NCBI GenBank assembly: GCA_019351955.1
Contig: JABBOE010000021.1
Span: forward strand, 1 to 37,793
Direction of reading: 5' to 3'
Source of the DNA: Pseudomonadota bacterium
GTDB lineage: Bacteria > Pseudomonadota > Gammaproteobacteria > Burkholderiales > Burkholderiaceae_C
Length of the DNA: 37,793 bases
Below, in pieces: positions 13,271 to 14,682 of this stretch. How positions within the stretch are numbered: the stretch's first letter is position 1; each line of letters starts with the position of its first letter. Both the position numbers and the translations under genes were made by a program. Under the pieces are notes generated by a model that saw only the letters and a program-made list of their open reading frames with translations, was not told the DNA's origin and searched no databases.

Positions 13271-13723
13271 TCAGACGTGCTCACCGAGCACGGACACAGT
13301 GATGGGCACCGTCACGTCTGTGGTCAGCGCTACGTCCACGTTGTGGTCGCCCACAGTCTTGAGCGGGCCTGTGGGCATGCGCACAGCGGACTTGGGCACG
13401 TCGAAGCCGAGTTTAACCAATGCTTGAGCGATGTCATGGTTGGTGACCGAACCAAACAGGCGGCCATCAACACCAGCCTTTTGCACGAGTTGCACGGTCA
13501 GGCCCTCCATTTTCAAGGCCATGGCTTGCGCGGCTGCGAGCTTTTCCGCGGCCAGTTTCTCGAGTTCGGCACGCTTGAGTTCGAATTCACGCATGGCCTG
13601 AGCCGTGGCGGTGCGCGCCTTGCGGTGAGGGATCAGGTAGTTGCGGCCGTAACCGTCCTTGACCTTGACCACATCCCCGAGATTGCCAAGGTTGGCCACT
13701 TTTTCGAGCAGAATGACTTGCAT
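13271..13723 (-). CDS. rplI: 50S ribosomal protein L9
   Basis: L9 binds 23S rRNA at the base of the L1 stalk and helps keep the reading frame. The 150-residue protein has the N-terminal RNA-binding block [17 protein letters not shown] followed by GYGRNYLIP, a long connecting helix rich in Ala, Glu and Lys, and the C-terminal domain with [18 protein letters not shown] precedes the ATG at good distance. It is the last gene of the rpsF operon, 17 bases after rpsR. Confidence 0.98.
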
Positions 13724-13740: not shown

Positions 13741-14022
13741 TCAGCTCTTGTGCTGGTCGGAGAACGGCATGAGCGCCAGGAAGCGGGCACGCTTGATGGC
13801 CGTATTGAGCTGACGCTGGAAGATTGCGCGCGTTCCGGTCAGGCGGGCTGGAATGATCTTGGCATTCTCAGCCAGGAATTCACGCAGGGTGTCCAGATCC
13901 TTGTAGTCAATCTGTTTGACCCCAGCCACGGTAAAGCGGCAGAAGCGCTTGCGCTTGAACAGCGAAGACTGCTGGTTGCGCTTGGGTTTGTTCTTACGAT
14001 CGGTTTTCTTGAAATAGGCCAT
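13741..14022 (-). CDS. rpsR: 30S ribosomal protein S18
   Basis: S18 forms a heterodimer with S6 on the platform of the 30S subunit. The 93-residue protein begins [10 protein letters not shown], has the conserved core [20 protein letters not shown], and contains ITARLTGT-type sequence ([11 protein letters not shown]). GAGGAG lies at 14030-14035, eight bases before the ATG. The preceding priB frame runs 29 bases past this start, so the Shine-Dalgarno and the first codons of rpsR are translated in two frames. Confidence 0.98.
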
Positions 14023-14317
14023 GTTCAGGCTCCTCAATCCATTCGGTAATGTTCAGCTTGAGTGTTCGAGATCCGCGGCGGCTGGGCATCAAAAACCCGG
14101 AGATCCTCAGCATTTGGCCAGCTTGCACGTGCTGGAGTTGGCGCGCCAATTCAGCATAGGCCACACACTGCAGGTCCAGGTCGATGTGCTGCGCGTGGCT
14201 GCCGATGTGCTGGGTGGACGCGTGGTTGACACGTAGATCCAGCGCCTCAACTCCGGCCGGCGTAAAACGCAGACCCCCACGCTCAACAACCGCCGCGACA
14301 ATCTCGATGCGGTTAAT
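13994..14317 (-). CDS. priB: Primosomal replication protein N (PriB), apparent ATT start
   Basis: PriB is a single-stranded DNA-binding OB-fold protein that takes part in restart of stalled forks with PriA. The frame between rpsF and rpsR encodes 107 residues that match betaproteobacterial Pri[24 protein letters not shown], given here in parts as INRIEIVA and [13 protein letters not shown], then HASTQ and MLRISGFL. No ATG, GTG or TTG occurs in this frame before codon 53, which is too late. An ATT at 14317 replaces the usual ATG of the Met-Asn-Arg start and has AGGTGG (14325-14330) seven bases upstream. A CTG at 14323 with GGAG at 14332-14335 is the alternative. The ATT lies two bases after the rpsF stop, so coupling is likely. 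Confidence 0.88.
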
Positions 14318-14319
14318 GC

Positions 14320-14682
14320 TCAGGCCACCTGCTCCGGCTGTGCCTTGCGGGCCTCTTCGCGCTCCACCGATCGCATCATCACGGAGGGCTCAGTCTCGGC
14401 CTTGTCCATCTTGACGATCAGGTGCCGCAAGACGGCATCGCTGAACTTGAAGCCATGCTCCAACTCCTGCAGCACATCTTGATTGGCCTCGATGTTGAGA
14501 CACAGGTAGTGCGCCTTGGCCAGTTTCTGAATCTGGTAAGCCATCTGGCGGCGACCCCAGTCTTCGAAGCGGTGCACCACGCCACCCTTGCTGGTGACGA
14601 CGCTCTTGTACCGTTCGACCATTGCTGGAACCTGCTCGCTCTGGTCCGGGTGAATGATGAGAATAATTTCATAATGACGCAT
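14320..14682 (-). CDS. rpsF: 30S ribosomal protein S6
   Basis: S6 pairs with S18 on the 30S platform. The 120-residue protein shows the S6 fold with [17 protein letters not shown] at the start, [15 protein letters not shown] and HYLCLNIEA. The C-terminal tail beyond residue 100 is charged and variable, as usual. GGAG lies five to nine bases before the ATG. It leads the rpsF-priB-rpsR-rplI operon and has a candidate promoter and a leader hairpin upstream. Confidence 0.98.

Follow-up and report, generated by a model that had tools for sequence, protein, structure and literature searches.

Analyzing a window of 37,793 nucleotides (the whole stretch of DNA considered here) from a Thiomonas-type bacterium, we found that priB, the gene for the replication restart protein PriB, lacks a normal start codon, and we consider it probable (at roughly 0.78) that a weak CUG start coupled to the termination of rpsF translation keeps PriB scarce. 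A preliminary description of this DNA had placed the start at an ATT; the absence of a normal start codon was confirmed, while the start itself most likely moves two codons upstream, to a CTG that overlaps the rpsF stop. The sharing of this CTG by relatives suggests a built-in means of limiting PriB output from an operon with high expression. Initiation at the CUG, re-initiation, the low yield, and the purpose of that yield are the parts of this account that we infer.

The priB locus and its product

The minus strand of the window carries rpsF, priB, rpsR, and rplI, in that order, with the following features:

14320..14682, minus strand: rpsF (S6), from its open reading frame and a profile match; its stop TGA (14322-14320) overlaps the CTG of priB
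13994..14323, minus strand: priB, 109 codons plus stop counted from the CTG, with profile and structure matches
14321..14323, minus strand: CTG, the likeliest priB start, present in 26/26 priB-bearing genomes of the genus and 11/11 of the sister genus
14332..14335, minus strand: GGAG, Shine-Dalgarno-like, inside rpsF and 8 bases before the CTG, in 37/37 genomes of the two genera
14315..14317, minus strand: ATT, read as internal codon 3 (Ile); ATT 3, ATC 18, GTC 1, and AGC 4 among 26 genomes
14162..14164, minus strand: GTG, the earliest standard start codon of the priB frame, which would yield a 56-residue remnant
13741..14022, minus strand: rpsR (S18), with an ATG start inside the end of priB (29-base overlap)
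13271..13723, minus strand: rplI, downstream of rpsR

Read along the minus strand, the start region runs GGAG CAGGTGGC CTG AGC ATT AAC CGC, and an AGGTGG lies 7 bases upstream of the ATT; these details, including the 8 bases between GGAG and CTG, agree with the preliminary description. The stop-to-stop frame of priB spans 13994-14389, lies in the -1 frame relative to rpsF, stays open for 22 codons upstream of the CTG, and holds no ATG, GTG, or TTG until the GTG at 14164. The statement that no such codon precedes codon 53 thus stood in substance, with the number off by one, as this GTG is codon 54 counted from the CTG and codon 52 counted from the ATT. Gene callers limited to ATG, GTG, and TTG would, as had been anticipated, truncate the gene to the 56-residue remnant, and priB may be truncated or missed by such callers throughout these genomes. 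If priB is read from the CTG, this codon and the next base (CTGA) form a four-base overlap with rpsF, which is the -4 stop-start overlap of termination-reinitiation pairs. The gene occupies the position between rpsF and rpsR.

That this frame encodes a full PriB, as previously claimed, was borne out by a match of its product to Pfam PF22657 (E 1.7e-23, 83 bits against a cut-off of 27) and to the solved PriB structures 3klw and 3fhw from residue 4 (Asn) on (5.3e-13 for PDB 3klw). The product missed the curated cut-off of NCBIfam TIGR04418 (64.7 bits versus 72); since that model is named PriB_gamma, the sub-cut-off score lowers only this filing. Upon comparing codons 2-53 of the window with those of 14 genomes of the genus, we obtained dN/dS values of 0.06-0.28 in 12 of the 14 comparisons; the other two were a close pair with few changes (0.67) and a saturated pair that yielded no value. 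Purifying selection on these codons was much like that on codons 54-92, and, judged by this conservation, the N-terminal half of priB is a real protein. We detected priB in 26 of 28 genomes of the genus, the two misses being 92 and 84 percent complete (6 percent contamination). At its 3' end, the gene is shorter in six genomes of the genus owing to an earlier stop, with 99 residues in five and 107 in one. Separately, a metagenome bin labeled Lentisphaerota gave a 50-residue PriB-like match that a PriB profile did not confirm.

CTG and ATT as candidate starts in related genomes

The ATT favored by the preliminary description proved poorly conserved among the 26 priB-bearing genomes of the genus. 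It recurs in only three (the window, G026, and G003), while 18 carry ATC, one GTC, and four AGC, and because the codon varies in this way, ATT is not a conserved start. None of the 26 has ATG, GTG, or TTG at this position, and two genomes besides the window share the same ATT, so the codon is not a lone base error; with 26 genomes in agreement, an assembly error at the start site was ruled out. The CTG two codons upstream, which had been named as the rival start, emerged as the better one, as it is found in all 26. It recurs in the sister genus, where 11 of 13 genomes carry priB and all 11 have CTGA in frame over the rpsF stop, with one, five, or nine codons separating the CTG from the core Asn. 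No ATG, GTG, or TTG lies between the rpsF stop and the PriB core in any of these 11 genomes, two of which (G254 and G426) have a second in-frame CTG closer to the core. In 6 of the 26 genomes of the window's genus, an in-frame TGA lies 12-14 codons upstream of the CTG, again with no ATG, GTG, or TTG between. The suspicion that priB has a rare start codon was thus well founded: there is no ATG, GTG, or TTG able to start the conserved protein, and a non-NTG alternative at ATT is not conserved while the CTG is kept in 37/37 genomes. In a tree built from RpsF and PriB, both genera form one clade of 37 (support 0.98), and the 37 genomes are therefore not independent evidence.

The surroundings of the CTG were similarly constant. 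GGAG stands 8 bases before it in 37/37 genomes of the two genera versus 21/192 others, and the AGGTGG before the ATT is limited to 4 of the 26 genomes of the genus, namely those with GTG as the penultimate rpsF codon. Across rpsF of the 37 genomes, the third base never varies in 15 of 110 degenerate codon columns, among them the two that make the GGAG and the one that makes the CTG. The next-to-last rpsF codon takes ten forms, and the wobble bases that make GGAG stay G even though one amino acid there varies among P, T, S, A, and Q. Against the CUG reading, GAG and GCC may partly reflect codon preference, given that 15 of 110 columns are invariant anyway. By itself, the C of CTGA says little, because rpsF ends in NNC-TGA in 93 of 114 TGA-ending genomes outside the two genera. 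CTGA occurs in the priB frame in 35 genomes outside them; 33 of these 35 have a standard start downstream, and the frame is open from the CTG in 26. The case for CTG is a combined one: no standard start is present, relatives have lost the ATT codon, the GGAG is kept, and the in-frame CTGA stays constant despite changes in length. The same layout with TTGA was found in five other genomes (two of family f10 and one each of f42, f49, and genus g25 of family f1), of which the f42 genome G571 has the identical geometry, TTG AGT CGT AAC.

Several other readings of the locus can be weighed against these data. A start at ATT (14317-14315), similar to that of infC and with AGGTGG as the ribosome site, would fit the family start Met-Asn-Arg and has the motif at 7 bases; ATT or ATC occupies the codon in 21 of 26 genomes of the genus, and a further genus, g61, appears to start priB at ATT or ATC. 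Yet the codon is GTC or AGC in 5 of the 26 and AGC in one of the 11 sister-genus genomes, AGGTGG tracks a GTG codon in rpsF that only four genomes share, and a change from ATT to ATC is also expected of an internal Ile codon, which makes this start unlikely. The rpsF stop is a few bases away from either codon, and species with ATT or ATC might use the two together to produce PriB forms two residues apart; we regard such dual use as quite improbable, as the evidence against ATT applies to it equally and nothing conserved demands two starts.

The chances are slimmer again that only the 56-residue remnant is made from the GTG at 14164 or that the gene is dying. The remnant is what a caller restricted to ATG, GTG, and TTG would report. 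Against it stand the purifying selection on codons 2-53 and the presence of the gene in 26 of 28 genomes, with both misses in incomplete assemblies; in addition, those who re-examined a 55-residue PriB from Klebsiella attributed it to a misassigned start of this kind (PMC3169591). We therefore rejected this reading. PriB might also arise fused to S6, if ribosomes shifted by -1 ahead of the rpsF stop; the relative frame of priB and its 22 open codons upstream of the CTG would permit this. However, the stop lacks a slippery sequence, and within the genus GCC can be preceded by GTG, GTT, GTC, GCA, GCT, CCG, or ACA. We discarded the fusion, which has hardly any probability left.

A probable weak start coupled to rpsF

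In the CTG reading, priB would be translated from 14323-14321. Ribosomes that end rpsF at its TGA would stand on the overlapping CTGA, aided by the GGAG 8 bases upstream, and a fraction of them would re-initiate at the CUG with fMet, giving Met-Ser-Ile-Asn-Arg and onward. The first-position mismatch of CUG would make this initiation weak, so that PriB, needed in small amounts, would reach a small fraction of the S6 and S18 output of the shared mRNA and would follow rpsF translation in proportion. Judged by gene order, S6, S18, and L9 are encoded on the PriB mRNA. The overlap of CTGA with the rpsF stop accords with the earlier suggestion of coupling to rpsF, and -4 overlaps, described as the arrangement most often found in serial gene pairs, have been linked to coupling (PMC10666635). 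A point against the CUG reading is that CUG complexes are reported as less stable than those of AUG, GUG, and UUG in E. coli (PMC11497404). For ATT, a test of all 64 codons gave about 0.3 percent of the ATG level (PMC10666635, citing Hecht 2017). Initiation factor IF3 discriminates against codons such as ATT and CUG (PMC5472188), and a control of priB by IF3 from its CUG is plausible. PriB dose can matter in E. coli, where a recG mutant is partly relieved when PriB is lost or reduced (PMC3533792).

We found no sign that RNA structure marks the site: the fold of 81 bases around the priB start (-27.7 kcal/mol) was no better than that of shuffled sequences (z -0.17), the same held for the folds at the starts of rpsF and rpsR (-11.5 and -9.8 kcal/mol), and a search for known leader RNAs across the whole window gave no Rfam family at gathering score. 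A PriB copy number in print was not found in the open-licence literature searched, passages of PMC12122000 included.

The arrangement resembles several known systems in part. Starts of infC are ATT in E. coli and ATC in Streptomyces, with autoregulation by IF3 (PMC5472188). In the window's own genome, the one considered for this gene, infC begins with ATC GCT ACT directly behind an in-frame stop, and its conserved part is preceded by no standard start; the lineage thereby uses a non-standard start elsewhere. Like infC, priB would combine a conserved gene with a rare non-NTG start that is in principle open to IF3 discrimination; unlike infC, its codon is CTG, it does not encode IF3, and it shows no evident feedback. 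Another likeness is to sigR of Streptomyces, whose GTC start is repressed by IF3 and conserved in 32 of 34 members of the genus (PMC5472188): priB would share with it a genus-wide rare start, one operon product kept below its neighbor, and misannotation by gene callers. The sigR case was shown by experiment, whereas that of priB comes from sequence, and the sigR passages of that paper mention no stop-start overlap. With ATGA and GTGA pairs (PMC10666635), priB would share the four bases common to stop and start, from which coupled translation is expected; it departs from them by its CTG, as in the available text of that paper the -4 overlap is either ATGA or GTGA, and neither CTG nor CUG is named. 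The gene order equals that of the E. coli rpsF-priB-rpsR-rplI operon (PMC4647458, PMC5318159), which is cited as an example of low-efficiency open reading frames among efficient ones, in a passage that does not state which frame is the low one (PMC5318159). In E. coli, by contrast, priB has an ATG start and no overlap with rpsF, and we infer that poor start codons in Betaproteobacteria may do what other features do there.

Well-characterized non-NTG starts in bacteria are few (PMC5472188). Among the matches listed from the open-licence literature (for most searches a part of all matching papers, with subscription journals mostly outside the search), we found neither a CTG nor an ATT start of priB, nor any description of a CTG start through two genera with ATT or ATC in a third and its contrast with the operon neighbors. 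If the CTG reading is true, a CTG kept in two genera beside neighbors with ATG, together with the different poor codons of other lineages, would offer a natural experiment on what a cell gains from a bad start codon. It would also permit testing whether the translation machinery tunes replication restart.

priB starts in other genera and families

We surveyed 229 genomes from 47 families in which rpsF and the priB start lie on the same stretch, a set purposely enriched for the window's genus, its sister genus, and g61, for which a chosen part of the listed matches was fetched, with mostly one or two genomes taken from each genus or family; starts were called by position, not by experiment. An in-frame ATG, GTG, or TTG between the rpsF stop (less 12 bases) and the PriB core was present in 181 genomes and missing in 48, comprising 26 of the window's genus, 11 of the sister genus, five of g61, two of f43, and one each of f12, f15, f20, and f39. 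Order-wide, the most upstream standard start within 7 codons of the core was GTG in 46 of 89 loci, TTG in 22, and ATG in 7; 14 had none, although 8 of these have a standard start further upstream. In family f1, represented by 141 genomes of 88 genera, the closest standard start within 6 codons was, by genus majority, GTG in 50, ATG in 21, TTG in 7, and none in 10. The operon neighbors, counted on a largely overlapping set of loci, start with ATG in 167/169 (rpsF), 78/78 (rpsR), and 112/113 (rplI) cases. For 69 representative genomes, AUG, GUG, and UUG shares of 82, 14, and 4 percent are given in PMC11497404, citing earlier work. Genomes with no PriB match numbered 2 of 28 in the genus, 2 of 13 in the sister genus, 2 of 60 in one set, 9 of 397 in the family, and 11 of 150 in the order. 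As a separate observation, genus g84 gave no PriB match in 6/6 genomes (G110, G202, G272, G329, G378, and G418) that are 99-100 percent complete, which would mean that PriB is lost or strongly diverged there.

In g61, all five genomes have an in-frame stop ahead of the core, at a distance of 24 bases in four of them and of 54 bases in G320. Among ATG, GTG, TTG, CTG, ATT, ATC, and ATA, the only codon after that stop is the ATT of ATT GCT AAT CAG (four genomes) or the ATC of ATC GCC AAT CAG (one), and the PriB proteins are intact. A Shine-Dalgarno scan gave no match before these codons. In the RpsF and PriB tree, g61 groups with other genera and not with the Thiomonas clade, at a node that carries no support value. 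Its priB genes seem to start at ATT or ATC, independently of the window. Seven further stretches stand outside the count of 229. In g144, CTG occupies the family start before Asn-Arg in 4/4 sampled genomes, with GGAGG six bases upstream in two; G486 has the rpsF stop in frame without any ATG, GTG, or TTG after it, and G522 has an in-frame GTG and TTG just upstream of the CTG. A single f20 genome, G529, has an in-frame TAA two codons upstream that leaves only CTG.

More tentatively, we suggest that in Betaproteobacteria selection for poor start codons might hold priB output low. The Thiomonas clade, g61, g144, and g201 or g192 would then be at least four lineages that passed independently from GTG or TTG to CTG or ATT/ATC, putting replication restart under the control of initiation fidelity (IF3 and the supply of fMet-tRNA) and of rpsF translation; on the present data we hold this to be possible but rather doubtful. 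Genome G029 has GAGGAG 7 bases before a GTC in the priB frame, its nearest standard start being an upstream TTG with no Shine-Dalgarno match, and a GTC start of its priB is possible.
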